Shown: piece by piece, positions 13,701 through 64,000 of the stretch
How positions within the stretch are numbered: position 1 is the first letter of the stretch
Layout of the letters: every line of letters begins with the position of its first letter
Origin: Polytrichum commune
Lineage: Eukaryota > Streptophyta > Polytrichopsida > Polytrichales > Polytrichaceae
Length of the DNA: 64,000 nt
NCBI GenBank assembly: GCA_950295325.1
Contig: OX485803.1
Location: forward strand, 21,700,001 to 21,764,000
Direction of reading: 5' to 3'
Notes under the pieces: model-generated
The model's database searches: none
What the model was told of the DNA's origin: nothing
The model's input: the letters and a program-made list of their open reading frames with translations, nothing else
Made by a program: the position numbers and the translations under genes

Positions 13701-16700
13701 CAAATAACCCAATTTCATTTCAACACATGTCTTTTTGGTGTCCATTCTTAAGTACAAAGCTTGCCATATACCACTCAAACATTGGCATTCAATTAAGAAG
13801 AGCGATCACGTTATATTCAAAGAATCAGGCTGGAAAGTTTGCACAGCTTTGAGATTCAAGCTAAGGTATTTGGGTTCTTTTCGGTTTAATTTCCATGTTC
13901 TCCAACTTCCACCGATTAGATTTACAGAAGGAAACTTGCGTTGCATTAGCAAATTTATGATGAAACATCAGTCACAAAGCGGACCTCCCCTGATTTGATT
14001 ATGGTTATCGGAAGTGCATGTTCGTTGATTTCTTAACTGAATACATAGGTCCTCCCCAATGTGAACACAATGTAGAGTGCGGAGTAGTTTCTAAAAGTCG
14101 AAGACGTAGTCTAGTCTCAATCCAACATGCGTCTTTATGATCTTTGTTGTTTGATCCTCACCGAACCACACACCCATCAAATATAGGTGTCCGAACAAGA
14201 AAAGGAACCTAATAACATAATCGGAGGGACTAATGTGCTCGTGCTGGAAATATTCTCACGGAGGAGGATATGGAATCAGAAGTCTTTTGAAAACACACCT
14301 GCTTCTTCTCCATTTTTCTTCCTCTCATGTACTCCATTCCAATTCATTGGTGTGAGTGTAAATTGTAGGATCCGGATGCTGAGGATGCTGCTCAAATCGT
14401 GAGGACGTTGTCAGTGCACCGGCATTGTGGATCAAGAGTACGAGTAATTGTGGAATTACTTAAACCTGAAAAAGCTGCCAGTGCCATTTGGGATGACACT
14501 GAGCATGGCATTGAAATCATCTGCCTCGACATCATCCGCTTCAAACTGCTTGCGCGCAGGTCCACCACCCAGTCCTTGTCCTCTGTTTTATTCCTGTAAA
14601 TTTTTTAATTTCTGTTTGAGGAGTCAGTTTGATTGATTCTCGTTTGCGCTTGTGCTTGTGTATGCCAAACAGCTGCTACATCAAAGGCTTGTCAACATTC
14701 ATTGTGAACCTGTTCCGCTCTGGACTGGACATCTCCAAACCTTTGAAAGGTCATTGGATGGAGAAGTATATGCATGGTCTTCACCAAGAAGTCTTCCCTG
14801 TCATCTTACCGGATGTGTTCCACAAGGAGGGACTCACATTCGAACAGGTAAGAAAATGAAACACGCAATTAGTGCAAGATGATTAGCAAATGCAAATTAT
14901 GCCCTTAGCCATTTTCCTCATAATTTTCTCCGGAGCTCGAATTCAAGTGTTGATTCTTTGTGCTCATTAACTGGTTACATAAGTTTAGTCCCTCCGATTA
15001 TGTTTAATATTGAGCCTCGAATGGATTAACATATTTTGAGCGCAGAGGCCAATCTCTTTTAAGCACATGATGCCTTTTTGGCATCCGTTCTTTGATCCAC
15101 ACCTAACCCCACAGACTACTCAACGTAGCCGGCGGGTGCAGACAGAATAGTGTCCATTTTAAGAGCCCCCACATACCTGAAGCTAATCACTATTGCTACC
15201 AGGCTGCAGAGCTGGTGTACCGGAAATTTAATGTGATAATGTTTGGGATCGACATACCTCACGAATACGAAGACGGTGAGATACAAAGGGAAGTTTTGTT
15301 ATACCCAAAGGGACGGACAATCGAACACGAAGATGTGGGTTTAGTCATAGCTAAGGACCTCAGAACAGCCGAACAAATCTCGAAGTTCGATTACGGCCTG
15401 CATTCACGCTGTCTTGGACTCCACAAATTTTACTGCGCAGCATGTCTCAAGGCAGGATTCATGAAGACAAATCCAGACCCTCATAAGGACAGCCGCGAGC
15501 TTCTCGATGATGTCAAGCAAGCAACATTCTCCGAATTTACAGATCACCACAAGTTTGAGCACAAGGTCTCGATCCCAGAGTTCGACACACACATACATGA
15601 AGAACTACAGGAGATCCAAACTGACTCGACATCTTTAAATGGCATACTACGAAAAGGTGAAGGTCGGCCCCGGGCTGGATTTTCTAAGCGATTTATTTTT
15701 GTATCTTATGCTCATTTTTCTTTTGAAGATCTTATTCTCTCAGTGAACTTGGTCTTTCACAAAGAACCCAAAAAAATGAATCTGATGGGGAGAGAACAAG
15801 AGACGACGCAAGCCAGCTTTTACCGTGAATGAGGGACACTTCAACTTGATCATAACCATGAGCTCATATGTGAATCCAAAAACGGGTTAACTGAGCAAGG
15901 CTATGGGACAAGTGCTACTGCTTCCTGTCGAAGTTGGTATAAGGGAAGGAGGGGCCCTCAAGGGGAAGGGGAACTCTACTAGGGAAGGGTTATAGAGAAG
16001 TGGGTACCCTGAGGATGGGTGTTATGGTGGCAAGGGGTCTTTATTGGTTTCCACATGTGTTGGGTTCGATCCCACAGACCAGCCTCGGGTGAATCCAATG
16101 ATATCTTCTTGACATAGTTGATCTTCATATTTTTCCCGTGGGTAATGGATGATAAGAGAAGAATTTAAAGGAATATTAGTTATGCATGGGTCTTGTTAAG
16201 ATTATGCCTTATTATACCTTGATTCTACAGTTGTTTCTCTTGTTATAACACTTTCACACTTTATTATGAACTTCTTTTTAAATTGGTAGAGCCTTATTTT
16301 GCCGGTGACCCCTGCTTATTGTACAGGTGTTGCTGCCCCGGGAGGACGGCATCATGGCATAACCTCACATGCATCCATGCTCAAAAAAGACAAGGATCCG
16401 AGCAACCATGGCGGCCAGAAACATAGCATCATTTCGCAAGCTTCCCTCTCAAGAGAAGATATTCAAGAACTTAGCAACCACAGCCAGGGACGAATAATAA
16501 CTCCACAACCCTCCCTACCGAAGATCGTAAATTTTGAAGATCAGCCGGAGAAATTGGAGAAGTCAGCAATATCATCACCACAGAGGATTGTGATCAGCTT
16601 AGAAGATGCCATCAACATGGCCATGAGTTGGCCACCCTTACAAGCTCATGATAAACCGGATCCAGCAATTTTGGAGAGACGTAGGCCCGAGATTCTTGAC

Positions 16701-19088
16701 AACCTTCGGATCCGGACGATGAATGTTGTCAAACTTCAGCAACCTCACGTGTTGCTTTGTATTCAAGGGAAATGGCCGACAAGTCTTTTCTACTTTGTTT
16801 CGTTTTTGCGTACTCCGGGGTTGCCTAATCCTCCGATTGTCATCCTGCATCCTCACTCGCCCCATCCTTCCGACTGGGGATGTATCGGCTTTCTCGACCA
16901 TGTTTACTTTGTGAAAGGGTCTCCGAGCTATGAGATGGATCTTCTGCGAGCGGGAGTTTTGCAAGCAGAGAAGATTGTGATATTGACACAAGGAATTCAA
17001 TTGGATCAACCTAGTGGGGAGATTGCGAATGATCAGGATCGTCTCACTCCGACCCTAACCTTCACGTTGGATGTCAACAATGTCTTCATCGCTGCCACGG
17101 TAAGTAATTTGCCCAATTTTCTCCTCACACATCTTTTTCCATAGGCTAGATAGGTCTTAAACGCTTTCTTTCGTTTGCCCAACTAGGCCACTTCTCCTAG
17201 GATAATAAACCCGCAATTAGTACAAGATGGTTAACAAATCCAAATTAAGGCCATAGCCACTCAGTCCTCATAATTCTCGCAGCTCATTTGATTATCTTAT
17301 TCATCGTCATATAGGTCCCCTCATTTATGTTGACTCTTGAGCCTAGAATGGATGTCAAAATTTGAACATGCGGTCCAATCTCTTTCAAGCACATCTCTTT
17401 TCAGTATCCGTTCTTGGAGCCACATCAAACCACATACCACTCAAATATAGGTGTTTTAGTAAGAAAAGTAACCGAATAAGGGTTGTCTACCTTATGAAAC
17501 AAATCGAGCTCTGCACCCACTTCTTGTAGGCGGCTATGAAACATGCAATTAGTGCAAGACAACTAGCAAACATAAGATCATGTGCGTAGCTACTACCCTC
17601 ATGATTTTTGGAACTCATATTCAAATATCTTATTCATGATTGTCAAAGTGAATATTCTCTCGAATCTTATTGAGTATCATATAAGTCGTCCTCAGTTGTG
17701 TTGACTATTCAGCCTTTTGTGCCCCTTTTGTCCCACGTCTCATGGTGGGATGGCAGGTTGAGCGGTTGTTGCGGCCGTCTAAGGAACGCGTGATAGTGGA
17801 GCTCCAACAAGAAACAGAGATCCAGTACCTCCAGCCACGCTTATTGTTTGATCGCCGTATCTTTGACAGTGAGATGTATAAGCGGAATCGATCTGCTACT
17901 TTCCAGTTTGCACCTCCCTATATCGATGGCAAGGCCTTCTGCCCCGCTGCTCTTGGATTCCTCATGTAAGTTTCACATCCACCTAAAACCGGTTAGAATG
18001 GGTAGGGCTTGCCTATGTGTCAATTCCTATTGGCCTTAAAAAAGGGATATGCTCCCTACAATTATGTAGATTTTCTTCCAAGACGGTATGAGCACAGTAA
18101 TCCTTAAACTAACGCATTCGGAATCCTACTGTATGTAATCTGATCAAATGTCTCTACTACAACTAAAAACTGTTCACGCCGCACCAGCATTTAAGTAAAT
18201 ATGGTCAAAAGACTTGTCCAAACTAATAATGCATTTGAGAGTATGTTTTTTTGAACCAGAGTCAAGACATGCACAATTCAGAACAAACTATTTGGGGAAA
18301 GACACCAGAAGAATACGACCAAATCCTAGTTGTACATATATTGAGAACCATTGATGTCAAATAATCATTCTAGATGTGGACTTTTCACAAATAACAGTGT
18401 GCAACCTGCAACTAAAACATGCTATGTACAACGAGAGATGCAGTCCACATCTAAGATTATTTTCTGTCATTTCTATCATCAAATCCGCTGATAGGATTAC
18501 ACGTATACATTTTTCATGCTTTCAAGAAGTTATGCATAAGCCTAGATCTACTTTAAACCTACCACGGGTAGCCCAGCTACCCAAAAGCTTAGGTGGTTTG
18601 CCTCCTCTCCACCATTTCAAACCTGATGTATAACAACAAACCTACAACAACCCCAATGCTCAACATCCCCTCGCTCAAGTATCTTCATGGCTATATTTTT
18701 GCCCTTATAAAAAAAATTATAACCCTTGAAATTATGTCTCTGCAGGTACGCAACATTTTTTAATTTACAAACATTGGCCATCGTAGACAGCCTGATATGT
18801 GGAGGCCAAGTGCTAGAGTTGAACCCCAACACGCTCGAGGAGCTTGCGTCGGAGCAATCGGTGTGTGAATTAGACCAAGTGACGATGCCCAAGTGCTACG
18901 TGGGCCAAACGTTCCACGACCTCTTTGTTGGGATGCTTCGAACCCACAGCTCTCTGGCGATGGGGATCTACCGCACCACTGACCTCAACCATGCAGGCGT
19001 CTCCTTTGTGTACACTAACCCTAAACCCACCGAGGTTATGGAAGCCACCGACCTTGTCTACATCTTGAAAGTGTGCAAATCGCCTTAA
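6039..19088 (+). CDS. BK/Slo-type (RCK-domain) potassium channel alpha subunit
   Basis: Predicted plasma- or endomembrane K+ channel. By-eye exons: 6039-6201, 7152-7305, 7465-7584, 8579-8807, 9268-9375, 9637-9686, 9870-9962, 10231-10314, 10667-10717, 10880-10971, 11501-11631, 11761-11894, 12297-12424, 12684-12735, 13239-13380, 14369-14559, 14673-14847, 15203-15656, 16327-17099, 17757-17965, 18746-19088. Lengths sum to 3876 nt, in frame (1291 aa). The N-terminus is long and His/Gln-rich. S1 is near residue 259, S2-S3 lie at 285-333, and S4 (about 340-356) has few arginines (LLFLRVLRIMP). The pore carries TVGYGD (428-433), and S6 follows. RCK1 (about 475-800) contains DPDAEDAAQIVR and SCYIKGLSTFIVNLF; RCK2 (about 985-1290) contains KGSP and DLLRAGVLQA. 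These match animal Slo1/KCNMA1. No S0 helix is evident, and the Ca2+-bowl acidic run is absent. The start codon is the first ATG in the frame that splices onward; the N-terminus is the least certain part. Most introns carry repeats. Confidence 0.9.
7690..8210 (+). repeat. (GA)n plus diverged tandem units inside channel intron 3
   Basis: A GA microsatellite (about 7691-7719) is followed by repeats of a unit beginning agagatgacgccaa. Copies start near 7714, 7868, 7901, 7958 and 8102, each followed by a variant of gtaggttgttttgaatgaga. Longer phrases, such as tttacggagcatg near 8032, also recur. Spacing is irregular (30-155 bp). It lies wholly within the third intron (7585-8578). Confidence 0.7.
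8290..8400 (+). repeat. possible tRNA-derived SINE head (intronic)
   Basis: The stretch ggctggtggttaatgg resembles a Pol III A box, and about 40 bases on, atgttcgaacccc resembles a B box (consensus GTTCGAANC). The spacing fits a tRNA-derived SINE promoter. A second candidate with the same layout is at 15930-16110. I see no intact tRNA cloverleaf, so I do not call a tRNA gene. Confidence 0.35.
11025..11380 (+). repeat. dispersed intronic repeat family R1, copy in channel intron 10
   Basis: Shares an ordered series of phrases with other copies in the window: cacatgcactttgggccgtt, ggccctcccaattgtg, tgagcctagaatgg (here tgtgcctagaatgg), gtgtcgttttggtgtccg and accactcaaatatagg. Unit length is about 350-400 bp. 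There is no coding capacity and no clear terminal repeats; it is probably a non-autonomous transposon family of unknown class. Confidence 0.65.
13440..13800 (+). repeat. dispersed repeat R1, channel intron 15
   Basis: One of the best-preserved copies. It runs from ggtatgtgggccctat through caaaagttataagaggtcaa, ccttccaattgtgttc, attgagcctagaatgg, acatgtctttttggtgtcca and accactcaaacattgg. Same orientation as the host gene. Confidence 0.7.
13855..14205 (+). repeat. repeat R1-related subfamily R1b, channel intron 15
   Basis: Closely matches 45130-45540: both contain catgttctccaacttc, gttgcattagcaaat, ggaagtgcatgttcgttgat (here) or gaagtgcatgtttgttgat (there), and gtctttatgat. The 3' third is R1-like. 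The second copy lies about 31 kb away beside the BAH gene, so the element is mobile or was mobile. Confidence 0.65.
14858..15175 (+). repeat. dispersed repeat R1 (variant left half), channel intron 17
   Basis: The left half begins gaaacacgcaattagtgcaa and is shared with copies at 17205, 17530 and 42655. The right half carries attgagcctcgaatgg, tttgagcgcag, ccaatctcttttaagcacat and a degenerate end. Confidence 0.65.
15930..16110 (+). repeat. possible tRNA-derived SINE head in channel intron 18
   Basis: The segment ggtggcaaggggtct (A-box-like) is followed after about 30 bases by gttgggttcgatcccac, a good B-box match. The arrangement parallels the 8290-8400 candidate. No poly(A) or defined tail was recognised. 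Confidence 0.35.
17205..17515 (+). repeat. dispersed repeat R1, channel intron 19, copy 1
   Basis: Contains cgcaattagtacaagatgg, gttgactcttgagcctagaa, ccaatctctttcaagcacat, ttcttggagccacatc and accactcaaatataggtg. It is followed directly by a partial second copy. Confidence 0.68.
17530..17720 (+). repeat. dispersed repeat R1, channel intron 19, partial copy 2
   Basis: Begins gaaacatgcaattagtgcaa and runs through atcatataagtcgtcctcag to gttgactattcagcc, then stops just before the next exon (17757). The right half of the unit is missing. Confidence 0.6.
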
Positions 19089-41807: not shown

Positions 41808-42356
41808 CTAATTGAGAAGATCATAGTCATCGAGACGATTGTTGTACTGCAACACCTTGCGTTTGATTTTGGACGAATCCACCCACGTGACGAAATCCTC
41901 CATGTTCCTCGTAACCAAAAAGGCAGGATCTGTAACCGTAGTCGGTCCCACACGAATGTGCCCCTGTTCCACAAACGTCACAGCCTCTCGCATGTTCTCC
42001 GCCATGTTCAACCGCACCATGACAACAGCCAACCGCCTGCGACAGATACAAGACACAGAGAGCCTGCTACACAGCGCCAAGCTCTTGGTGGAAGGAATGA
42101 CCCCCATGGCATACAGCTTCTCCAGGAGTGCCTCCGTCATCTCAAGCCTCTCCTTGTCCTGAGCATGCAACTGCTTAATCATATTCACCAGTTTGGTCAC
42201 CATGCCACAGATTTTGCTGTACTCCTGGTAATCCTCCCGGCCTGTGATGTGGTAGCGGCGCATCACTCGCATCTCGTGCTCGCCTCGCTCTTTCTTCCAT
42301 TCTAAGAAGTTTACCTTCTTCAGTAGCTTCTGCTCGTGATACTTGAGCTTCCTCAT
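41808..42356 (-). CDS. IMP3: U3 small nucleolar ribonucleoprotein protein IMP3
   Basis: Nucleolar protein of the SSU processome. With the U3 snoRNA, IMP4 and MPP10 it helps U3 pair with pre-rRNA for 18S rRNA maturation. The single uninterrupted frame gives 182 aa, the usual family length. It starts with the family-typical MRKLKYHEQKLLKKVNFLEW. The N-terminal S4/S9-like half includes RRYHITGREDYQEYSKICG, and the S4 RNA-binding region includes CRRRLAVVMVRLNMAE, EQGHIRVGPTTVTDPAFLVT and NMEDFVTWVDSSKIKRKVL, ending LDDYDLLN. No lesion is seen. It is intronless, unlike its neighbours, but the ORF is intact and has a telo-box upstream, so I see no reason to call it a retrocopy. Its 3' end faces the HAD gene. 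Confidence 0.97.
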   Translation of the reverse strand: MRKLKYHEQKLLKKVNFLEWKKERGEHEMRVMRRYHITGREDYQEYSKICGMVTKLVNMIKQLHAQDKERLEMTEALLEKLYAMGVIPSTKSLALCSRLSVSCICRRRLAVVMVRLNMAENMREAVTFVEQGHIRVGPTTVTDPAFLVTRNMEDFVTWVDSSKIKRKVLQYNNRLDDYDLLN

Positions 42357-46719: not shown

Positions 46720-49700
46720 ATGGGAAAAAGGAAGGTATCCCACACTTCAGACGGTGAAATTGACACAGTTAAAGACGAATTTGAAGATGGAGTTAAAGAT
46801 GGAGTGGACATGGAAGGAGATGTGAGCATGAAATCGATTTCTGAAGGCGGTGATGAGGAGAGTGCTGCTGAGGTGAAAGTGATCGGAGAGATCCTTAAAA
46901 AGTCAGGAGGGAATGGCAAGGCGGATAAAAAACTCTATGAAGCCTTCGAAGTGGATGGCAACCGCTATGAAATTGTAAGAAACTTGCCCCACGCCATAAC
47001 ATATAAGCCTCTTATTATTTCCCTTTCTCAAGTGAAAAGTCCTTCACTTGATCTGTGGAAATTTTGTGGTAACGCTGCACATGGTTCGTTTGAGGAACAT
47101 ATTGCTAATTTCATCAGCACATAAGTGGTTTTTGGTTTTGATGTACAATTAATTTTCCCAGTACCTGATTCCAATTTTTTTGCAGCTATGTTGTGGAACC
47201 TAATATAACTGTGAGTATTGAAATCTAAGGATTATGTTTTCCTTATCTGTCCTCTTAATGTTCCTAAGTTCCTACAGCTGTTCTGACTGTCCTCACTGAC
47301 CCCAATGTTCTCAAGCGAAAATTTTAGTCGATTTAAGTACGAATTTGTGAAAATTTCTTTGGCAAAGCACATAGTTCGTTTGAGGGATAGGTTGCTAATA
47401 TCATCAGTACATGAGTTCTTTTTAGTCTAAAAATTATGCAATTGATCTTCCAATACCTGAACCATTATATTTTGCAGCGCTCTGTTGGGGAACCCAACAG
47501 AACTTTCAGTATTGAAATTTAAAGGTTGTTTGATGACTGTGTTGATTGCAGGACGACGCCGTTCTGGTTACTCCGGAGAGGAATAGCCAGAAACCATATG
47601 TGGCTATCATCAAGGTTTGTGTGCCTTGACAAATCTTGAATTCTAGTTGGTGGTAAAGAGTTTTGACTTCAAATGTCATCTTAGACTGAGATGATGCCAT
47701 TAATGCATCCGAAACATTGATGATTGATCCTCATAAGTTGACGATCAATTGAGTGGAAGTTAGGTTTCTCGATTGATAATGTGTGAGAGTCGAAACCATA
47801 TTATTATTAATCAGTGTTGCTTACATGATAATTTTTCTTCTTGCAGGAGATCAAGATGCTGAAAGATGGAGTTGTCCAAGTGGCAGGTCAGTGGTTATAC
47901 CGGCCAGAGGAAGCCGAAAAGAAAAGTGGAGGCTCTTGGACATCCATAGACTCCCGAGAGCTTTTTTATAGTTTCCACATCGATGAAGTCCCAGCTGAAT
48001 CGGTGATGCACAAATGCCAAGTGTACTTCATCCCACCAAACAAACAATTGCCCCTACGATCGCAACACCCCGGTTTTTTTGTTCGCCGGGTGTATGATGC
48101 GTGTGAGAAGAAACTCTTTAACCTCACTGATAAAGATTATGAGGATCCGATGCAAAAGGAAATCGATCGACTTGTAGAAAAAACACGCAAGGCGCTCGGG
48201 AATTTGCCAGATATTATTGTTGATGGTGGGGATGGGAAAATGGCGGCGGCCTCAATGGATCATGAGGATGTGGCTAGTCCGGAAATGAAAATTAAGAGAC
48301 GCGTACCCGCTAAAAGAACTATTGCGCCCTTGAATGTGAAGATGGAGTTGAATATTAATGTGCCCAAATGCCACATTGATAATACTCCGTTGATGGGAAA
48401 GTCGGCCGATGCCGCAAAAGCTGAGACGCCCAATAGTTGTGTAGGTACGGACGCAGAAGTGTCTACTCTACTCGAGACGCATGGGGTTTTATTGGGCGTG
48501 CATGCCCGAGATCGATGGTTGGAGAAATTAATGCGAACAATTCGAGATGTGTGCGGGGGTGGCAGAGGTTTTAATGTAAAAAATGGGGACGAGGGTGCAA
48601 ATGTTGGTGGAGTAGGAGGAGGAAAGGATGGATTAGCAAGGACGAAAAGCTTCTTGGTAAGTGTTCTAAAATTTCTGGGAAGGGTTTCTTTTGATTTCTC
48701 CTAGTATCAGGTCGAAATCTAGTTTTTAGATAAATTGAAAAACGACTAAGTAGACGAACTTTGAAAACTCTTGGGAGGTGCATCTTGTGATCAGAATCTT
48801 TGATTATGCCAATAAAACGAGGGTTGACGAGCGTCAAAAATGATGTGATGTGACCAACGTCATTGTCAGTGTGATGTAAGGTCATTTCATGTTAACGCTC
48901 TGGGAAAAAACCAAGCAATCAATCAAAACGCGCCACATTGCAAATAAAATAAAGGAAAAAAAAATCACAGCGATAGTTGTCCATCAAGCTGCTTGTCCCG
49001 CTGGAACACACCGGATCAGAGATATGGACATTAGACATCCGGTCTATTTTGAAATTATAATCTTTTGAGAAAGTGTGACTGCAATTGTACCTCAGAGCTC
49101 GATGAGCTCTGCAATCTGTTCCAAACACCCACTTTATTTTGAGAAAATTATCTTTCACCTGTGCAACCCTTAGGGATGGCTTGACTTCCTTCAATGCTGA
49201 ATAACATTGAATATGAATGTACTTTTTTGTTATGTCCACTGTAAGCTGGTGCCTTCAAGCTTACAGTTTGTTACGTGGAAATTCTGACAGGGAGAGGGGA
49301 GCTTAACATGGCCGGAGGTTGCTGACACGGCAGTGGAGGTAGTAAGTGCCGTAGAAAGGTTGAGCCATGACACACCTGGAAATGATCTACACAAACACAA
49401 CCTCAAGATGCGCCAGCTTGATTTCAACATCAAAGTAATGTCCACAAATCAACAGATTCTTGCCAGATTTAGTTTTCTGCAGTCAAACCAATAGCCATTA
49501 TGAAATCGCCAACCATTTTTCTTGAAGATCGAAGGGGTTGCAGTAAGGTTGAGGATAATCGATAAAATAATCGATTAAGTAAGAGTGTTTGCATCTGTTC
49601 AGGAGGAGTAACAGTGGGGAATTGTTTTTCTTCCAAAGAGAAACATATTTCAAGGAGAGTGCAGTTTATTTAATTTTTTTTCATGAATATGGAAATTGCT

Positions 49701-51910: not shown

Positions 51911-54900
51911 AATGTGAAGTAACACCACTTTGTATATATTGGAGGTAAATGTTTTTTATGGTACCCAGAACTGGTCTTGCATGTTTTGTAGTAAATCAAT
52001 ACTTCTATTTGATCGTCAGGGAGATTTTCCTATGCAATCACCTGAAGTGTCATTACCAGCACCTTCATTTTCAGCCACAATGGATAGGTTGTTGATGTGG
52101 CTAACCCATTAACAAAGAGGAGCTTAGAAAAATGAAGCTCCTGTAGACCCACACATTGAAGTTTCAAATTGGCTTTTTGAGAATTTTATTAGAAGCTCCT
52201 CTGCTTTACGATGCATTGAATTTTCAAGTACAACTTCTTTCAAAAACTTTAGTGTCTGGAATAAACAGAAAGTCATGTAGAAAAAGCATCATACCAGTCT
52301 GTCTGCATGGTCATATGTTCAAGCACAAGAGCATGAAAGTGCGTGTTTTTTCAAACATGTACACACACTTTTCACCTATGATGGAAAGCTATCATTTTTC
52401 TAAGGGTTAACCAGTCTGGTGGTTAATATATTGATTGTAAATAGCTTTGATAAACGATTTTCTGTATAATAGTGAATCTCGAACTAAAAGTGACCTCCTG
52501 TATGAAGTTTCTTAAGTTATGTGTCTCACAAGAAGATGGCTTCAACTTCAATCCCATTCAAATCACAAAATAGTCATATTAACCTACATTGTTTACATCT
52601 GCTATTAGCTTGCTTGAAATATATCAGTGACAACATATTTTTACAAACTCTTATGTGGTTTGCAGATGCATTGGACTGTCCAATGATGTGCCTACTTAAT
52701 TGCAGGTTAGTGAGGTACCAATTTTCATACCGAATGCAGTAGCTGACATAACCAAGATAGCTTCTTCCATGGCATCCTGTGTACAAATTGTTTTGCTGAG
52801 TTTCTATTTAACAGAGTTAGTTAGAAAAATATAAACTACATCAACTCCAATTGTATGACTGCTTTTTAGATAACTCAATTCAAGGTATTTTAGTTAAGCC
52901 CACCTCAACTTTGGAATACAAAAATACCGTTTACAAATTGAATCGATATGGAATCCAATTAAATCTGGATAACCTAGTAAACTTTTAGCGAGAAGATCTT
53001 CAACTTATTAGTATTTCAAAATTTGCTTGTTATTACATTGCACTATTGGACATCCTCAACTCCCCAATAGATTTTTTTGCTAAATTAAGCTACATAATTG
53101 GTCCTATAGGTGTGGGTTACCATTTGGAGTTACATGTTGGTTCAACTTCAATTGACCGCCGGGGGCACCAAGTGTAAAATGTTCTACATATGTGTAATAT
53201 CTGACCTATTTTAAGGGGGACATTTTTTTGGGTCCTACATTTTGAGGACCTTTAATTATGTAATATTGGAATTCAAGTCTTTTGATGGGATGGTATTTTC
53301 ATTGTAATTTTTTGGAGCATTCATATCCATAACTTTATTTATCTTAAGAACTTAAAAATTTATGAAAATCGGACATTTTTCAAGTAATAAAGGCATTTTT
53401 CAAGATTGCAATCTAAGTTCACTCCTACAAATTCACCCAATCCCCCCCCCCACATCTTGCCATTTCCACAATACCAATTCATGACTTACATAAAGATGTT
53501 TTCAGGGTCTTTGCCTTAACAACACCGATACCCACCACTAGAACATGTGTTGTGTGACCTTTGAGTTCTACGACCCCTCTCTTGTGTCTGACACCCACCA
53601 CCTAGAACTTGTGTTATACAACTCTCGAGTTATTCAATACCTCTCTTGTGTGTCTCCTTGTTGCAATGTTTCACAAAAAAGGCCAAACTAGACACATGCT
53701 TGTAATGGGCTCGTACACCCCTCTGAGCTCGCCTCCACAGACCCTTGTTTGCCACATGACACATGAGAGAGAGGATATCAAAATTAGCCCCCCAATAGGG
53801 ATTAGGGAAAGTCTTTTGTACTTCCCAAAGGACTCATGAATGAAATTTACCTCACTTGTTGGAATGACAAGATAGAGATTATTTTCATAAGGAAAATATC
53901 ATAAAGTCTACCTAAGGTCTAGATAACAATTTGGCCTCTGTTGGTAATTGCAAAATATTATCTCAACCAACTTTTGATTTTTCTCTTGGAATATTTGTAC
54001 ACATACGTTAGTTGTAATATTTTCTTTAAAAAATCCTAATAACTAATAGGTTAATTTTTTTTGGCATAAGCATTAGGTATAGATGCTATCCTTAATTATA
54101 ATTCTATTATATTTTTTTACTTTTGAAATATAATTAGCCACCCTATGCTATATTCCACCCCCTTTTGGAAAATATTGGAAGTGCAACCCCTATAAATGGA
54201 AAACATTGAATTTTTCATCATATAACATATATAATTAGTATGCACATAAGGAATAGAAAATAATTTGCTTGCTAAATATGATATTATCGGTGAGCGTTTA
54301 TAGTAACTTGTAACTCCAAATGATACTACCCATACTAATAGGAATTGTTGTAACCCCATCCTATTGACTCAGTATATTTTATCATATGCATCAATTCCTT
54401 GCAATCTTAGGGTTAAGCATAGCTAACCTACTTGATAAGCTCAATGCACACAATTCCAACAAGCTTGTTAATTCCATTGTCTAAACCCGTCACCAACAAT
54501 CATATGTGTCAAAGTATTGGCAATAGGCAAAGGACAAGGTGACTTCGGTGGCAACCACTACAACTTCAGTCTTTTTGGGGGATGAGTTTTTGATTTTGGG
54601 GGTGTTGCTTTATGGGCGCTACGAAGGCAACACTTTGGCACACCAAGAACGAAACTGGCAATAATTTGAGCCACTCTGGGAATTCTTGCAACAACCACAA
54701 TCTGGCTCCTTTTCAAACTATAGCTAGAGGTTGGGTCTAGGGTTGTAAGGAGTCGGATATGGGTGCACACATGTTAGTTGAAAGGCCAAGAATTAAGCAC
54801 TTTTTGAGTGTTTGCTTTAAGGTTCAACTTTTTTTCTTTTGTCTTTCATGTAGTTGTCTTGATTTCATGCATGTGTGAATATGATGCAGATTTGAGTCTC

Positions 54901-56070: not shown

Positions 56071-56075
56071 ACCTT

Positions 56076-57756
56076 TGTCACGGTATGCGGCGTCGACGGC
56101 CGCACCTTATCCGTTGGGTTTCATCCATCTAGATTTGGATGGATGAATCTAGATGTGGAGAGGAAGGCTCCTAAGTGAGGAGCTTCTTCCTTGGCTTGGC
56201 ATTCTTGCCAAGTCAAGTCTTGTGAGTTAGTGTGTGGAGAGAGCTTATGTGAGGTGTAGATTGCATGATTTTGCAATAAATCTTGAGTTCTTCTTCCTCT
56301 ACTTACACTCTTGGATTCTCCCTTGGTGGAGTGAGAGATAGCTTGACTAATTTGTGTGCATTTGGAGAGAAATTAGAGCTCTTATGAGTGTTCTACTCTC
56401 TTCCTTCTCACTTGGCAAGAATGTGCACGATTCATTTTTTTTTTCTTCAAATCTTGAGCTCCAACACTCAAGAAAGAGTGTGAGGACAAGTGGTTGCAAG
56501 ATTCTGGAGTGGAGGAAGACAAACATTGCGGATTCACGGAGAAACAAAGAAAAACAAGGTGTGCTTGTGATGTGTGCACATCATTTTGAATTGTGGTGAG
56601 AAATTTCTGAATTTCCCACGGAATTTTGTACCATTTGGTTGCTCACAAGCATGAATTTATGAAGTGGGAAGTGTACAAGCATTTGTGATCTTCAAATGGA
56701 TCAAATTTTTCTTAAAAAAAAAATTTAAAAAAAAATTAAGTGAAGAAGAGGGAGGCGGTGTGCCTCCCTCGACTGCCTGCTCTGCCCGGCAGCTGGTCTG
56801 CTGTTAGTCTGTCGGCGGCTTCTTGCGGCTTCCGGCGGCGGCGACGGCTTTCCTGCCTGCGACCTGCGTGCCTGCCAGCGACCTGCCTGTCTGCCATTAG
56901 CAGTGGCCTGCCTGCCAGCGGCCTGCCAACAGAGGCAGAGGCAGCTGTAGCTGCGTACCGAAAATGATCGGGGAGATTTTTGGGCATAATCAGTTGAGAC
57001 CCTAGTGGTTGCAAGTCAAACCGGTTCGGTGACAATCCTTTTATTTTTATTTTGTTTTTGTCTTTGCTTTAATTAATCAATGCGTTAATGAATTAAAACC
57101 GGACTTTATTTTTTTAATTTAAATAATTAAAAACCGGATTTTTTAATTTTAATTAATTAATTAATTAATTAGTGTTTACTTGCAACTTCTAATCTTTTGT
57201 TTTATCTTTAAGAGGTTAATTTCTTAAGGAGTGAAAAAGACGGATTTTGGTATCAATTGTGTTTTCATTAATCAAGGATACAAGGAAGAACACCTAAACT
57301 TTTATGAAATATTAAAAATACTTGGGATTTCTTTTTAGGGGTTGTGTTGTACGAAATTTCCGAGGGGAATGCCATTGGAGATTGGGTGGCATGTGGAATT
57401 TCCGTTCGGCCTAAAATAAATTATTATTAAGGTCGAATTGTGTTTGTCAACACATATTCCCGGCATTCTTGTGAGGAGGGATTCTTAGATTGTAGTGGGA
57501 AGATGAGAGATGTGTATAGGTAGCATTTCATTTTCTTAAGCAACAGGGGCTCTTCATTTTTGACCACCAACTGCAGGCGGGTGCCAGTTGGTTGCGGTCG
57601 TTTTCAATTTCTGCTTGAATGTTGTTTTGGGGAAGAGGATCCAGTGCTATTCTTGCATTGTTCCTTGTATTTTGTTTTGGTACCTTCCCCTGTGGCGGGC
57701 TGTAGTGCTAGGGTGTTCTGGCACTGCCCCATTTTGTGTAGTCCTAGATTGTGACA
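56076..57756 (+). repeat. candidate 5' LTR of the Ty3/Gypsy element
   Basis: Begins TGTCACGG after acctt, and a matching inverted hexamer GTGACA ends at 57756, giving the TG...CA form. An AATAAA is at 56275-56280, a possible polyadenylation signal. I cannot confirm the end without the 3' LTR, and no standard primer-binding site follows at 57757 (the next bases are gggtattgtggagg). An alternative end near 57248, before ttggtatcaattg, would give an 8-base match to a tRNA-Met primer site but lacks a CA terminus. The start is better supported than the end. Confidence 0.45.
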
Positions 57757-57774
57757 GGGTATTGTGGAGGTGAG

Positions 57775-57863
57775 GTCGGATTAATGACCGACGGGACCTT
57801 TGTTTGTGCACCAAGTGGGCGGTGCTTGTTTTCACTTGTGGTGAGGCTGGGTTAATGACCAGC
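57775..57863 (+). promoter_or_regulatory. twin stem-loops in the Ty3/Gypsy leader
   Basis: Stem-loop 1 pairs GTCGG (57775-57779) with CCGAC (57788-57792) around the loop attaatga. Stem-loop 2 pairs GCTGG (57846-57850) with CCAGC (57859-57863) around gttaatga. Both are preceded by tgag. The stems differ at paired positions yet both remain complementary, while the loop is nearly identical. They lie about 120-205 bases upstream of the gag start, where RNA packaging or dimerisation signals sit in related elements; that role is inference. Confidence 0.5.
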
Positions 57864-57980
57864 AGACCATAAGTTTTGGTGGTGGTTGCAGGTACAGGTT
57901 GCCTTTGACCTTTTTTCTCTTTGTACCTGGATACTAATTCATTTGGGTTGTTGATTCGGTGACCATCCCATTGTGGGTTT

Positions 57981-59099
57981 ATGGTTACAACTCGTACTCA
58001 ACACTATCGTTCTCCGTCCCCAAGAATATCAGAAGGTCATCATTCGGACCTCTCGGACGTTGAACCAGTGGTAGCACCCAACAAGGTTTTTCAGCCTACT
58101 TCGGCGTGGGGGACTATCACTCGGTCTCACGTCCTGTGGGTGGGAACCTTTGACGATATGGAGGAGGAGACTAGGGGAGGGATACGGGACCGGTTTTCTG
58201 GTCGAGCAGGGACCATTTCTCTGCAAGACTGGAAAATCCGGTTTCGTACGTGGATGCGAGAGAAACGCCAACGCAATACCAATTTTAACGATTGGTATGC
58301 GTTTGAGCTTCTGCCTCAGCATTTGGAGCATGAAGCTCTCCAAACTTATGAGCAGTGGACGGAGGCTCATTGGATGGAGCTGCGCCAGGTGGAGCGGTAC
58401 TGGGAGACTCGGGTTGAGTTGGTATCCGCATTGAAGGAAGGCGTAGCTTCCAGTTTCATGGCCGTTCCGGATGTCAAGACGGAGGTACCGGAGGGAGGTT
58501 ATGTGGTGGAGGTGGAGGGAGCTCCTCCTGGTGAGCCGAGGGCTACGGGTCCTGCTCCCACTGCGGCGAGTACGTCGAGCCCAGTTCTTCCACTCTCGCG
58601 TTATGCCATGGCCACCCAAGCGGCTTTAGCCTCTTTAGGGGCTCCGCCAGATTTTGAGCCATTGCGGGCATTTGAGTTGCATCTACAGGGGGAGTACGGA
58701 GGCTTCCGTCGTGACCAGATGCAGCGGATACAAGATTTCAGACGGGAGAAGGACGATACACCTCGTACCATGTATACGAGGTTGGCGAGGTTTGCCAGAG
58801 AATCTGGAGGTGTGTTCGCGAAAAGTCAGTTGGTGAAGGTGTTTTTGTCAAAGATTGACAGACGTCTCCTTGACTTAACACTACCCAGGATCATCATGGA
58901 GTTTGGTGGTCGAGCGACACTCGCAGAGGCATTCGCCGTGGTGGAGCAGTGTGATCGTGCATTATGTCAGCACGATGCCACTGATTTGGTGTCCTTGCTA
59001 GTGGATTCTAGCAAATCCGGTTGCGGTTGCGGGATTGGCGGAGGCCGAGGTAGACAAGACCATGTATTGTTGGTCTTGTGGGCAGGCCGGCCACGCTAA
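57981..59099 (+). CDS. Ty3/Gypsy Gag capsid region
   Basis: Structural protein of the retrotransposon particle; uninterrupted for 372 residues from an ATG. The middle holds a tryptophan-rich helical segment (LQDWKIRFRTWMREKRQ, about 80-96), and the second half holds a retrotransposon-gag-like stretch (FRRDQMQRIQDFRREKDDTP, then TMYTRLARFARESGG and VFLSKIDRRLLDL). The zinc knuckles normally at the Gag C-terminus are not in this frame but at the start of the next frame, which is +1 relative to Gag and open from 59002. The Gag frame ends in a Gly/Cys-rich tail without homology (the overlap). This implies either a +1 ribosomal frameshift as in some Ty3 elements, or a small indel in this copy. Confidence 0.8.
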   Translation: MVTTRTQHYRSPSPRISEGHHSDLSDVEPVVAPNKVFQPTSAWGTITRSHVLWVGTFDDMEEETRGGIRDRFSGRAGTISLQDWKIRFRTWMREKRQRNTNFNDWYAFELLPQHLEHEALQTYEQWTEAHWMELRQVERYWETRVELVSALKEGVASSFMAVPDVKTEVPEGGYVVEVEGAPPGEPRATGPAPTAASTSSPVLPLSRYAMATQAALASLGAPPDFEPLRAFELHLQGEYGGFRRDQMQRIQDFRREKDDTPRTMYTRLARFARESGGVFAKSQLVKVFLSKIDRRLLDLTLPRIIMEFGGRATLAEAFAVVEQCDRALCQHDATDLVSLLVDSSKSGCGCGIGGGRGRQDHVLLVLWAGRPR

Positions 59100-61920
59100 G
59101 AAGGACTGTCCTTCGAAGCAAAGGCAAGCCCAGACCGTCACTACTCCGAAGCGGAAACCATTTGTTCCCGCTAAGGGCTCGGCGAAGGGGACGACGGGTA
59201 ATCAGTTACCCAAGCAGTTGAAGTGTTCCCATTGTGGGCGGAACAATCACGCGGTAGAGAACTGCTTTGCTCTCCATCCTGAGAAACGTCCTTCTTCCGA
59301 CCGGGAGAAGACGTTGGAGGCGAAGATTGGAGCCATGGAGGAGAGGTTCAAAAGCTTGGCGTCATCCGGCCAAATCTTGGCCTCACCGTCTTCCTCCGGA
59401 GCTCAGGCTAGTTCTTCCACTCCGGATTACTATATGTTCGGAGCCTCGGGCGAGGTGGTGAGTTCCGCGGCCGTGACACGTGCTCAAGCCGTGTCACAAG
59501 CCATACCTTCGACTACAAATGAATATGTGGCAAGCTCGCGAGCTCGGGACAATGCGCCCGCGGACCAAATTGGTCAGGCACGACTACCATTATCTTTTGG
59601 ATTGGCCGATGCCGTCCAATCTGTCAGTGGTCGTCGTCCGAACGATGAGGTTTCACATTCAGCGACTGATGTGGCGTACACGTTGGCATCCAAGGTGTTG
59701 CACACACCTTTGTTCACGGCCATGGAGTGGTCATCGCCAGAATTCCAACCTGCTAAGGTTTTTCACTTAGCATGTAGGATTTTGGAAGGGAAGGCATCCT
59801 TACCTTCTCTGACCGTGGCTCAAGCCACTACGGACATCCCTGCTTCTGAAAATCCTGAGGATGTGGCCAAACGCCGAGCAAGGCTTGCGGCAGAGACCAT
59901 TGCGTCTTTTGACACACACGCCTCAGATGACAAGACACCGACCACGTCTTATGACTCACCAGTATCCGCGGGTGCAGCCTATCTGTCTGATGTCGCTGCT
60001 AGACCTGTCCGCGAGTGCCGCGGTATTCGACCCGGCGTTGTACGTATGGTGAATGATACCGGAATTTTGGTGGTCAGTTGCACTGGGAGCAATGCTACTC
60101 GGGTTGCTCCCCATTGTGTGATGATGGATTCAGGGGCACAGCCAGTTATGATCGGCAAGAGGCTTGCCCAAGAGTTAAGGTTGACGGCCGAGGATTTGGC
60201 TCCCTGTCCTTTCACCATTGTCACATCCATTGGTCACGTAGAGCAGGCCATGGGTTATACTCGAGAGCCATTACAGCTTAGCTTCCGAGTGAAGCCTGAA
60301 GATTCGCCCGCACCTCTTCTTCTTAGGTGTGCGGTGACGGATGCGACCAACTATGACATTTTAGTTGGTCAGCAAGCACTTTACCCTCTTGGTTTTGGTT
60401 TGGACAACTGGACTAAGGAGGCGTGGATTCGACCAGGTTGGTCGGCTGGGGATGGCCGCAGGGAACTTATTCCCGTGGCTTTCGCAGCGGCTGCGACCAT
60501 AGCACCATTATCTATGGTTTTTGGATGTGGTGCTATGGTGGACACATTGCCTTATGGTTCCGCATTGTTGGAGGAGTCATTGGCATTCATGGGGAGTACA
60601 GACGATCAACGGGATATGGCACCTAAGGGTGCATTGGTGCGCCATCCCAAGGATCCCCTTCCTCCTTGGCATGATTCCGCCGAGCTATTTCGGAGGTGTG
60701 AGGATATTGTTCACTCTCTCACTCCTAGGACACCGGTCATACCGGGTGTCCTCTCGGCATTGGCACATCCCATTTTATGGCAGCCGCCAGACGCGGGGAT
60801 TACTTTGGTGGAACTGTTTGGGGGCATCGGCACATGCTTAGCGGCCGTATTGGAGGTTGGCCTCACGGTCAGATGGTATGTCTATGTGGACAACTCTCCA
60901 GTGTCCACCCGTGTGGCTCGTCACCATCTTCACCAGTTGATGGTATTGTACCCCCAGCAGTTACCTCCAACTGCCATTCATGGGTGTTTTTCACGTCTCC
61001 CTCGTGATATTACACTCATCAGTGAGGCCGACTTACGACACTTGGGCCCGGTGGATATGGTGATTGCGGGATGGCCATACCAAGGCCACTCACGTGCTGG
61101 AGCAGGCCGAGGTTTAGAGGATCCCAGGTCTAGCCTTTTCTGGGACCTCATCCGGCTTATGCAGTGGTGGTTTACCCACCAACCTTCCCCTCCAGGGTAT
61201 ATCTTCGAGAATGTACCTTTGTTGGGAGACTCTCGGGACAAGGTGTTGAAAGGCGATTATTATGTTCGTCAACACCTTGGAGATCCTATTTTTGTGGATG
61301 CCGCGAGCATTGGTTCTTATGCCCACCGACCTCGGTGGATTTGGACCAACCTCGCACCGTCATCTACTTTAGCTGCAACATTTTCTGCAGTGCCTCCACC
61401 TTTTGATCAAAAGGTGGATGACATCTTGGATCCAAACCGGACTTCTTTGCCGGTTATTCGAGATGATTTACCCCCGTTGGCATTGGTCAACAAAATGGGG
61501 GCACCACGGCGGGCCTTTCCCACATTTATGACGTTTCCACAGTCATTCGCTTTCTGCGATAGGGGGCCGGGTATGGTGTGGGATGTTCACACCAAAACCC
61601 ACACCGAACCATTGGCTGATGAACGGGAACGTGCCATGGGATTCCGCACTGGCATCACCGCAACTCCCGGCCTTTCTGAGGGCCAACGACGCTTCGTGTT
61701 AGGCCAAGCTATGGATCTTCATACTATGGTGTGGACTGTTGCTTTATGCCTTTCATTGCAAAGGCATCGTGATGACCAGTGGTTGTCTCTGGGGGCAGAG
61801 GACTCTGGTCAGGGGGCACAGCGGTCCACACCCATGGAGGAGGGAATTTACGCCATGGTTGGAGAAGCCGAACGAATTTTTCAATTCGAGCAGCATGTGA
61901 TGGAGGAGCTTCGAGCTTAA
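59002..61920 (+). CDS. Ty3/Gypsy Pol N-terminal part: zinc knuckles, protease and DNMT3-like C5-methyltransferase
   Basis: The frame is open from 59002; residues are numbered from 59035 (961 codons to the TAA). Two CCHC knuckles: CWSCGQAGHAKKDC (12-25) and CSHCGRNNHAVENC (64-77). Residues about 80-350 are unrecognised, Ala/Ser-rich linker. The aspartic protease has MMDSGAQPVMIG with catalytic Asp365, and later NYDILVGQQAL. The methyltransferase spans about 585-925. Motif I is VELFGGIGT (F595, G599) and motif IV is AGWPYQGHS, where Tyr682 replaces the catalytic Cys. Motif VI is IFENV (Glu725), motif VIII AHRPRWIWTNL (763-773) resembles AHRARYFWGNL of animal DNMT3, and motifs IX-X are DERERAMGF and VLGQAMDL. 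Motifs run I to X without the circular permutation of DRM enzymes. No PWWP, ADD, BAH or chromodomain is seen. As it stands, the copy should be unable to transfer methyl groups. Confidence 0.88.
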   Translation, partial: WILANPVAVAGLAEAEVDKTMYCWSCGQAGHAKKDCPSKQRQAQTVTTPKRKPFVPAKGSAKGTTGNQLPKQLKCSHCGRNNHAVENCFALHPEKRPSSDREKTLEAKIGAMEERFKSLASSGQILASPSSSGAQASSSTPDYYMFGASGEVVSSAAVTRAQAVSQAIPSTTNEYVASSRARDNAPADQIGQARLPLSFGLADAVQSVSGRRPNDEVSHSATDVAYTLASKVLHTPLFTAMEWSSPEFQPAKVFHLACRILEGKASLPSLTVAQATTDIPASENPEDVAKRRARLAAETIASFDTHASDDKTPTTSYDSPVSAGAAYLSDVAARPVRECRGIRPGVVRMVNDTGILVVSCTGSNATRVAPHCVMMDSGAQPVMIGKRLAQELRLTAEDLAPCPFTIVTSIGHVEQAMGYTREPLQLSFRVKPEDSPAPLLLRCAVTDATNYDILVGQQALYPLGFGLDNWTKEAWIRPGWSAGDGRRELIPVAFAAAATIAPLSMVFGCGAMVDTLPYGSALLEESLAFMGSTDDQRDMAPKGALVRHPKDPLPPWHDSAELFRRCEDIVHSLTPRTPVIPGVLSALAHPILWQPPDAGITLVELFGGIGTCLAAVLEVGLTVRWYVYVDNSPVSTRVARHHLHQLMVLYPQQLPPTAIHGCFSRLPRDITLISEADLRHLGPVDMVIAGWPYQGHSRAGAGRGLEDPRSSLFWDLIRLMQWWFTHQPSPPGYIFENVPLLGDSRDKVLKGDYYVRQHLGDPIFVDAASIGSYAHRPRWIWTNLAPSSTLAATFSAVPPPFDQKVDDILDPNRTSLPVIRDDLPPLALVNKMGAPRRAFPTFMTFPQSFAFCDRGPGMVWDVHTKTHTEPLADERERAMGFRTGITATPGLSEGQRRFVLGQAMDLHTMVWTVALCLSLQRHRDDQWLSLGAEDSGQGAQRSTPMEEGIYAMVGEAERIFQFEQHVMEELRA

Positions 61921-62067
61921 CATTTTTACACTGCTTCGGTTTCTTCGCCTCCGGTGGTGGCTTCATCATCACATGTTGGTGGTGATGAAGAAATATCAGA
62001 CTCTAGTACTAGCACCGAGACTGGGGGCATGGTTAATGCCCCCTCTTCTCATTAGCAATTAGAGTCT
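61921..62067 (+). pseudogene. linker between methyltransferase and RT, broken by stops
   Basis: The same frame continues past the TAA at 61918-61920 as a Ser/Thr/Glu-rich linker (for example SDSSTSTETGG), then meets a TAG at 62053-62055 before the RT region. Coding-like composition and unchanged frame on both sides suggest that the stops are point mutations within one original pol frame. An alternative is a natural boundary between two pol reading units. Confidence 0.55.
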
Positions 62068-62844
62068 GTGCCAGCATCAGGTGGTTCTCCTTTGGTGGAG
62101 AGGGAGACTACAAAGTTTGATGATTGGCCATTGGAATTGGGCCCTCATCTCACTGATGCTGAGGCACGAAAAGTACGAGCATTTATTCGCTCGTACCGTA
62201 GGTGTTTTGCTTTTAGCCTTCAAGATCTTGAAGGTTATAAAGGAAAGCCCATCCACATTCAGTTGGAGGACGACCATCCCATTTTTCGGAGACCTTATAG
62301 GCTTAGTGTTTCCGAGCGGAGCGGCGTTCAGGCTCGTTGCCGAGAGCTTTTGGCAGCAAGACTAATCGAACTTTCCAACGGGGAGTATGCTTGTGCTATG
62401 GTTATGCCATCGAAAAATGATATTTTTGGCAATTGGACGGAGAAGCGGATGTGCGGGGATTACCGTCCAGTTAATCGGAATACCAAGTCGGATCGATATC
62501 CCATGCCAATCCTGGAGGAGTTGTTCGATGCCCTTGGATTTGCTCGAGTCTTTAGCACGTTGGACTTGAGATCCGGCTATCACCAACTCCCATTACTTGT
62601 GGGAGACCGAGTGAAAACCGCATTCTGGGGAGTTGATCAAGATGGAAAAGATCAACTTTACCATTGGAAGTTTCTTCCGTTTGGCCTGAAGAATGCACCT
62701 GCGGAGTTTCAGAGAGTGATGGACCATGTTCTCTCTGGCTTACCCTTTGCTCGGTGTTACATTGATGACGTTATCATTTTCAGTATAACACCACAAGAGC
62801 ATGTAAAGCATCTTCAAGCTGTTTTTGAGCGGTTGCAGCGGTAG
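62056..62844 (+). pseudogene. Ty3/Gypsy reverse transcriptase (fingers and palm)
   Basis: RNA-directed DNA polymerase domain that copies the element RNA. Recognisable Ty3/Gypsy blocks in order: DHPIFRRPYRLSVSERSG, MVMPSKND, MCGDYRPVNRNTKSDRYPMP, FSTLDLRSGYHQLPL, KTAFWG, FLPFGLKNAPAEFQRVMD and the catalytic YIDDVIIF (YIDD at 62758-62769). The frame ends in TAG at 62842, within the segment that normally runs on to the thumb, so the domain is truncated in this copy. It continues in the same frame immediately afterwards. Confidence 0.9.
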
Positions 62845-63117: not shown

Positions 63118-64000
63118 CAGGCGTTTGAGACATTGAAGCAGAAACTGGGTACGGCTCCAGTGCTTCGACGTCCAGATGTCTCCAAATCTTTCCAGTTGCA
63201 TACAGATTGGAGTTCATTGGGTTTGGGAGCAGTTCTTACTCAGAAGGATGATTTTAGTCGGGAGTATGTTGTTGCTTACGCTTCGCGAAGCAATAACACG
63301 GCGGAGGCTAATTATTCATCCTACGAGGGAGAAACATTGGCGGCGGTATGGGCTATTGTCCATTTTCGGCCGTATCTTTATGGTCAGCACTTTACTTTAG
63401 TGACTGACCATCAGCCGTTACGGTGGCTCATGGAGTCAGATAAGCTTACTGGCAAGCTTGCCAGGTGGGCTTTATTGCTCCAGGAGTATGACTTTGAGGT
63501 GGTACACCGTGCTGGGATTACCAACATGGATGCAGATGGACTCTCACGCAATCCAAGTCCTTCAGATGAGGACTTGACCGGGGCCAGATGGCATGGAGAT
63601 TGTGATCGAGAGGCGGTTCCAGGTTGGCACGCGGCTGCCTACCTTACTTTATTTTCTGGTGCATCTGTTGAGATTCCGATACAGGGTTCGGATGATGAGA
63701 CTGATCGGCCTCAAGCTATTGTGGATATATGGGAGGATCTTCCCGTATTGCATAAGCTTCAACAGGGTACCTTTCCTTTGTCTATTTCGGCAATGGAAAG
63801 GGATAGGATTGGACATCGAATAACAAGATTCCGTTGGGAGAACGGTTTGTTATTTCGATTGTGGCCGGATGGGACAAGGCGTATTGTTCCTAGGCCGGAT
63901 CAGAGGACCTCCTTGGTGCGACAAATACACGAGGAACTTGGCCATTTTGGCATACGCAGGACACATTCGATGTTGCGTGGCCAATATTGGTGGACTGGCA
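63118..64000 (+). pseudogene. Ty3/Gypsy RNase H and integrase N-terminal region (truncated by window)
   Basis: Same frame again, open to the window edge. RNase H core: FQLHTDWSSLGLGAVLTQ, YASRSNNTAEANYSSYEGE, VTDHQPLRWLM and then VVHRAGITNMDADGLSR. About 140 residues on, the integrase HHCC zinc-binding start is visible as IHEELGHFGIRRTHSMLRG and YWWTG at the last bases. The integrase catalytic core and any chromodomain lie beyond 64000. No stop is seen in these 294 codons. Confidence 0.9.

Follow-up and report, generated by a model that had tools for sequence, protein, structure and literature searches.

The 64,000-nucleotide stretch of DNA analysed here (the window) contains a decayed retrotransposon that carries a DNMT3-like C5-cytosine methyltransferase (DNMT). 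With a probability of about 0.7, we read it as one copy of a Ty3/Gypsy-like family that is old, numerous and recently mobile, and in which the DNMT3-type enzyme is a constant part of the Gag-side polyprotein. That there is a DNMT3-bearing Gypsy family at all is nearly certain. The element runs from 56076 to 66046 (9971 bp; positions are window coordinates throughout), has CCTT at both flanks and extends beyond the end of the window.

The window copy itself is dead: Tyr stands in place of the catalytic Cys of the DNMT, gag is out of frame and pol has extra stops. An earlier reading, made from the letters of the window alone (the sequence-only reading), had treated this copy as able to methylate, and with the Cys absent this part was given up. 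Plants silence transposons by cytosine methylation, so it is a testable paradox that an old transposon family keeps a methyltransferase of its own under selection. The genome offers many young copies and three diverged subfamilies.

Domains of the window element

The open reading frame (ORF) on the forward strand in which the sequence-only reading had seen a methyltransferase (59035-61920) is present. PF00145 matched its residues 657-736 (E=2.8e-9, 37.3 bits versus a cut-off of 22), and the same domain was found in two other copies with E values of 1.1e-11 and 5.7e-12. All motifs were located where they had been claimed: VELFGGIGT at 60808, GWPYQG at 61069, FENVP at 61204, AHRPRWIWTN at 61321 and VLGQAMDL at 61696. 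Their order (I-IV-VI-VIII-X) is canonical, as in DNMT3, and not permuted.

The aspartic protease expected upstream of the methyltransferase was found (MDSGAQPV at 60124), and so was the reverse transcriptase (RT) downstream of it (PF00078, E=1.1e-20), which shares the frame of the DNMT (62068 minus 59035 is divisible by 3). The zinc knuckle (E=0.0023) and the aspartic protease (E=0.03) were weak matches under the cut-offs, yet their order is as expected. Past the window, the sequence fetched as L009 holds the core of the integrase (rve, E=6.6e-14), as well as a PHD finger (PF00628, E=2.7e-11). The order protease-RT-RNase H-integrase agrees with the Ty3/Gypsy type named by the sequence-only reading. 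The assignment is made by the domain order of polymerase and integrase and not by repeat layout, as plain long terminal repeats (LTRs) do not stand at both ends.

Type of methyltransferase

A profile built from 11 copies was compared with solved structures. DNMT3A (4.2e-12) and DNMT3B (from 5.3e-11) ranked first, followed by chain 4onj (4.1e-7), HaeIII (5e-6), HhaI (3e-5), DRM2 (2.7e-4) and DNMT2 (0.006). The record of 4onj reads DNA methyltransferase; we take the chain to be a plant DRM. By this ranking, the DNMT of the element is closest to the catalytic domain of DNMT3 among solved relatives, in line with the earlier preference for DNMT3 over DRM, CMT and MET1. The similarity was clear from motif I to motif VIII and weak beyond.

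DRM, CMT, MET1 and bacterial enzymes were rejected as nearest kin: DRM and bacterial chains ranked below DNMT3, and the profile matches listed at E≤10 included neither a DNMT1 nor a CMT chain. Plant DRM came next after DNMT3 and differs in being permuted, which the DNMT of the element is not. Animal DNMT3, the closest solved relative, shares the canonical motif order. The element has the catalytic domain only, and no Pfam match to ADD, PWWP or DUF3444 was obtained in ORF1 of the two copies scanned.

A permuted DRM-type gene with several exons was seen elsewhere in the genome (L028, C2:4701200-4706200, minus strand). DRM is given as restricted to streptophytes in PMC12344493.

Distribution of the methyltransferase among copies

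The genome comprises 407.8 Mb in 64 contigs, seven of them large (42 to 78 Mb). Among 352 candidates, 123 were scored PF00145 matches, some of which may not belong to this element; 18 of the 123 lay in open frames of at least 1356 amino acids. Nine further copies, chosen mainly for long frames, were taken nearly whole, together with the missing part of the window copy. From the remaining 114 matches, 20 right ends and 19 DNMT regions were drawn at random. A second, RT-based sample (147 scored RT matches of 1667 candidates) was added because the PF00145-ranked list favours copies with an intact motif IV.

A listed DNMT was found upstream of the RT in 70 of the 147 RT relatives, mostly at a distance of 1.26 or 1.31 kb. 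We inspected 20 of the remaining 77, comprising 15 whose open frame reached at least 900 amino acids and 5 others, and 19 of these 20 carried the DNMT as well: 16 at the usual place and three further upstream owing to later insertions. Individual copies were interrupted in different ways. In L089 an insertion follows directly after the DNMT; in L090 the DNMT frame shifts close to its end and further sequence has been inserted past the leaky stop described below; in L092 the insertion lies within the DNMT. For L091 the view covers only sequence downstream of the DNMT. An open frame of at least 1040 amino acids across the RT was present in 32 of the 147 matches.

Hence, the genome-wide search for copies that the sequence-only reading had proposed found the DNMT family-wide. 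None of the 90 copies looked at was shown to lack it, L091 being in view only past the DNMT. Uptake by a single copy, through a one-off insertion or an assembly artefact and with no family-wide role, is practically without weight: the window copy is defective and has lost its catalytic Cys, but such uptake is contradicted by the counts in the RT relatives and by the congruence of DNMT and ORF2 distances across three subfamilies, and one-off capture is ruled out by the copy survey.

Subfamilies, selection and origin

At least three subfamilies were distinguished, all with the DNMT: g1, which includes the window copy, g2, and g3 (L051/L068, one copy seen). The identity between g1 and g2 was 64% for the DNMT and 86% for ORF2; between g3 and the other two it was 45-51% and 63-64%, respectively. 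Because DNMT and ORF2 distances agree in their order, the DNMT most likely was present before the subfamilies split.

The comparison of g1 with g2 (four copies each, 16 pairs) shows purifying selection on the DNMT between subfamilies, as judged from substitution rates: the nonsynonymous rate (dN) was 0.27 and its ratio to the synonymous rate (dN/dS) was 0.12, with dS saturated. In the same comparison, RT gave a dN/dS of 0.03 (6 pairs) and gag one of 0.08 (16 pairs). For the DNMT within g1, the ratio was 0.19.

The precedents in charophytes and dinoflagellates that the sequence-only reading had named are described in PMC5890265 (de Mendoza et al. 2018). The closest of them is KnitGypsy-Dnmt3 of Klebsormidium nitens. 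Compared by description, the two elements have in common Gypsy domains, an un-rearranged Dnmt3-type methyltransferase in the polyprotein, DIRS-like repeats (Fig. 4 legend of that paper) and purifying selection. The element studied here differs in the Gag-side position of the DNMT, ahead of a leaky stop, and in its host, a probable land plant. SymbioDIRS-Dnmt3 of Symbiodinium likewise has a Dnmt3-type methyltransferase in a split-repeat retrotransposon, but with a tyrosine recombinase and a DIRS-like polymerase, whereas we found a DDE integrase and target duplications. A 2025 paper (PMC12344493) states that DNMT retrotransposons exist in streptophytes and dinoflagellates, and calls the LTR type Copia.

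Among the titles listed from the open-access literature, no DNMT3-bearing Gypsy element was found beyond the 2018 paper and the 2025 paper citing it; nor was a Gypsy element with split repeats and a DDE integrase, or a PHD finger in a Gypsy integrase. The words PHD, readthrough and split are absent from the main text of PMC5890265. Within the literature searched, several features are new: a probable land-plant host, a DNMT that precedes a leaky stop on the Gag side, a PHD finger on the integrase and, as described below, the A-int-B form with target duplications and the circle-junction reading. The permuted DRM gene, the BAH-domain gene in the window and the actinoporin-like exons found elsewhere in the genome suggest that the host is a non-seed land plant. 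This supports the land-plant host proposed earlier and would extend the range of DNMT-bearing Gypsy elements. No confirmed relative of the element was found in the viral contigs searched.

The element lineage could also have acquired its DNMT from the host by convergence, in a capture separate from that of the Klebsormidium element. This is doubtful, although the authors of PMC5890265 view DNMT capture as recurrent: convergence would demand a triple coincidence, as Gypsy domains, Dnmt3 and DIRS-like repeats, compared by description, are all shared with KnitGypsy-Dnmt3. DUF3444 is named as the partner domain of plant DNMT3 in PMC6453930. We used it to look for a host DNMT3 as donor. Eight places were read as six loci, and in the three loci inspected (L093, L094 and L095, covering five places) no methyltransferase lay within the 7 to 9 kb fetched.

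Leaky stop and PHD finger

In intact relatives, ORF1 encodes Gag, protease and DNMT (1361-1386 amino acids) and ends in one TAG, after which ORF2 (RT-RNase H-integrase-PHD) continues in frame. The hexamer after the TAG is CAATTA in g1, CAATCA in g2 and CAGCCA in g3, i.e. three spellings of CARYYA. TAG-CARYYA was present in 13 of the 14 copies looked at, including the window copy (62053). With equal base frequencies, the chance of CARYYA after a TAG is ~1 in 500. UAG-CARYYA is known from tobamoviruses as the type I readthrough signal (PMC5382211). The element has this exact motif between its two ORFs, where it would separate Gag-protease-DNMT from RT-integrase.

Expression of ORF2 through a leaky stop is, on this evidence, very likely. 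The amounts of DNMT would most likely be similar to those of Gag, with RT and integrase produced only via readthrough. The sequence-only reading had placed the methyltransferase inside pol. This is wrong because, in intact relatives, the DNMT lies on the Gag side of the TAG and ahead of the RT.

The PHD finger (PF00628) was found at the C-terminus of the integrase in all four copies scanned (L009 at 1023-1163, L013, L017 and L068), with E values of 1.2e-11 to 1.1e-9. Chromoviruses carry a chromodomain at this position.

Element ends and integration

A plain repeat search gave a 334-bp repeat. It was rejected as an ordinary LTR, as no target-site duplication (TSD) was present at its outer edge, and this led to the split-repeat reading. 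Six of ten full copies have the form A1-int-B1-GC-A2-B2 and four the form A1-int-B1. Perfect 4-bp TSDs were found in 10/10 full copies, directly outside TGTCA... and ...CACGACA. The A-int-B copies have no terminal repeat, yet the four full ones all have perfect 4-bp TSDs. In the window copy, A1 and A2 (65595-65928, in L009) differ at 5 of 334 positions.

Of the randomly drawn right ends, 15 of 20 were readable (12 B-A-B and three B only). Overall, 18 B-A-B and seven B-only ends were counted among 25 readable of 30 looked at. The last B is shortened in L034, and of A2 in L046 no more than the start is in view. The spacer between B and A was 2 nt long in 18/18 cases (GC in 17, AC in L039) and occurred in three subfamilies. 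The A|B junction was exact in most copies, with gains or losses in a few (window copy, L034 and L044). In the window copy it contains the polypurine stretch GAGGGGGGGCA, which is also found before B1.

The A1-int-B1-A2-B2 geometry is common to this element and the DIRS-like tyrosine-recombinase retrotransposons. The difference is in the enzyme and the target: an rve (DDE) integrase and 4-bp TSDs here, a tyrosine recombinase and no target duplication in DIRS. Split ends combined with DDE-type target duplications point to integration from circles, which is not standard for Gypsy elements. We infer from the ends that the true LTR would be B+A, and that a one- or two-LTR circle would be opened at GACA-GC-TGTC by the DDE integrase. 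Such circle-junction integration would account for both end forms, the TSDs and the junctions, and we put its chances at about even.

An ordinary LTR integration with later deletion or recombination, and no opening of a circle, is an unlikely source of the split repeats. A-int-B could in principle arise from A-int-B-A-B through deletion, and five of the 20 sampled right ends could not be read. Deletion would not leave the perfect 4-bp TSDs that all four full A-int-B copies have of their own at B1, and the same 2-nt B|A spacer recurs in three subfamilies. Moreover, A|B gains and losses in a few copies are as expected for the U5|U3 joints of two-LTR circles.

At the right flank of the copy at 13.1 Mb on C3 (L021), the six bases with which the element begins (TGTCAC) recur just after the TSD, by chance or as the trace of an earlier event.

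Possible role of the methyltransferase

With most ribosomes stopping at the TAG, synthesis and packaging of the DNMT would exceed those of RT and integrase, as for Gag. The leaky stop thus predicts that the enzyme is produced in the manner of a capsid protein, and this would restrict its role to the particle. There, the DNMT would most likely methylate the new double-stranded complementary DNA (cDNA) before integration, and the new copy would thereby arrive with the host's own mark. As the role of the DNMT, methylation of the cDNA is possible, with a chance somewhat below even. The cDNA would probably be circular, with one or two LTRs. The integrase would open the circle at the B|A junction, the palindrome GACA-GC-TGTC, and insert it with a 4-bp stagger, in a manner similar to that of bacterial circle-junction insertion sequences, and the PHD finger may guide insertion via histone H3 tails. 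The scheme as a whole is tentative: a Ty3/Gypsy-like lineage that would replicate via circular cDNA opened by a DDE integrase at a permanent junction in the LTR, inserting one- or two-LTR circles, with a DNMT at Gag stoichiometry possibly marking the circle.

An active DNMT might instead target host chromatin or the integrated copies of the element, which would then limit itself and do less harm. PMC5890265 discusses a self-limiting benefit as one of several options for such elements. The decay of the window copy would also fit. When gag-DNMT was compared with four relatives, the nearest of which is 96.7% identical to the window copy, 42 of 56 window-private substitutions were C>T or G>A (CG 14/454 sites, CHG 6/367, CHH 22/1357). 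This excess is as expected from the decay of a methylated, silenced copy. However, host methylation alone would give C>T decay, and production on the Gag side would presumably concentrate the enzyme in particles. We therefore consider a self-limiting enzyme improbable as a replacement for cDNA marking.

Catalytic activity and points against the reading

The catalytic Cys was present in all 51 non-window copies examined (35/35 from the PF00145 list and 16/16 RT-selected, the latter without motif IV bias); Tyr occurred only in the window copy. A fully dead family was rejected, as Tyr is limited to the window copy among the copies examined. In the 35-copy set, the Glu of ENV was unchanged in 35/35 and the arginine of HRPR in 34/34, while the mean DNMT site departs from the group reference in 8.7% of copies. 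Judging by these residues, the DNMT is likely to be catalytically active in intact copies. The argument is qualified by the 16 RT-selected copies with the DNMT at the usual place: ENV is altered in three of them, and some have stops.

Several points weigh against the interpretation given here. The first 35 copies all came from the PF00145-ranked list and are biased to an intact motif IV, and the window copy is not in that list. The motif I glycine is altered in three of the 35 copies, and motif X reads GQAMD where GN is usual. Within the younger g2, the dN/dS of the DNMT was 0.71 (6 pairs, very few changes); because dS is very low, current selection in g2 is not demonstrated. The AlphaFold model was poor (mean predicted local distance difference test score, pLDDT, of 51), so that its 50 listed fold matches, all to the DNMT3 family, give weak support for the fold. 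L092 lacks TAG-CARYYA, no primer-binding site was identified in the element, and the circle model, with its even odds, is drawn from the structure of the ends. Finally, the KnitGypsy DNMT gave no methylation in yeast, a result called inconclusive in PMC5890265.

The yeast result, the unusual motif X and the fading of DNMT3 similarity beyond motif VIII would also suit a DNMT that has lost its enzymatic function and is retained in the Gag polyprotein to bind nucleic acids or for structural reasons. This is the more unlikely explanation, given that Cys, the ENV Glu and the HRPR arginine are unchanged in the 35-copy set against a mean site divergence of 8.7%.

Feature coordinates and neighbouring genes

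In the window copy, the TAA at 61918 ends the DNMT frame prematurely, and a further stop lies within the RT.

Table 1. Parts of the window element in window coordinates
Feature	Position	Strand	Basis
4-bp target-site duplication CCTT	56072..56075; second copy 66047-66050, past the window in L009		TSD reading, recomputed
A1, left terminal segment, 334 bp, starts TGTCAC	56076..56409	+	Repeat comparison
5' untranslated leader	56410..57980	+	By position, between A1 and gag ORF
gag reading frame, 372 amino acids, severed from the remainder by a short deletion near 59015	57981..59099	+	ORF
Zinc knuckle - linker - aspartic protease - DNMT reading frame, early TAA at 61918	59035..61920	+	ORF and Pfam
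CCHC zinc knuckle, weak match	59068..59109	+	Pfam
Aspartic protease region, MDSGA at 60124, weak match	60109..60255	+	Pfam
DNMT3-like C5-cytosine methyltransferase domain, motif I to motif X	60799..61719	+	PF00145, profile, motifs
Motif IV GWPYQG, catalytic Cys replaced by Tyr	61069..61086	+	Motif reading
TAG-CAA-TTA, type I (UAG-CARYYA) readthrough motif, between Gag-protease-DNMT and RT	62053..62061	+	Motif match
Reverse transcriptase reading frame, broken by a stop	62068..62844	+	ORF and PF00078
RNase H and start of integrase (H2C2 zinc-binding)	63133..63999	+	Pfam
Integrase core (rve), PHD finger (65023-65163), B1, GC spacer, A2, B2	Past the window; element end 66046	+	L009

A tRNA-Lys (TTT) gene lies at 54768-54843, ~1.2 kb upstream of the element. 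Three further genes were seen in the window. The ORF at 16299-17144 has an RCK domain (PF22614) and matched no solved structure; we take it to be of the CASTOR/DMI1 ion-channel kind. A ribosomal S4/S4-domain protein, presumably IMP3-like, is encoded at 41808-42356 on the minus strand. A BAH-domain gene occupies 47841-48704, and its only listed solved relative is 7cce (E=4.5e-53), which we assume to be a plant BAH protein. Elsewhere in the genome, six matches to actinoporin-like exons (PF06369) were found on contig C7; actinoporin-like genes are known from mosses and lycophytes.

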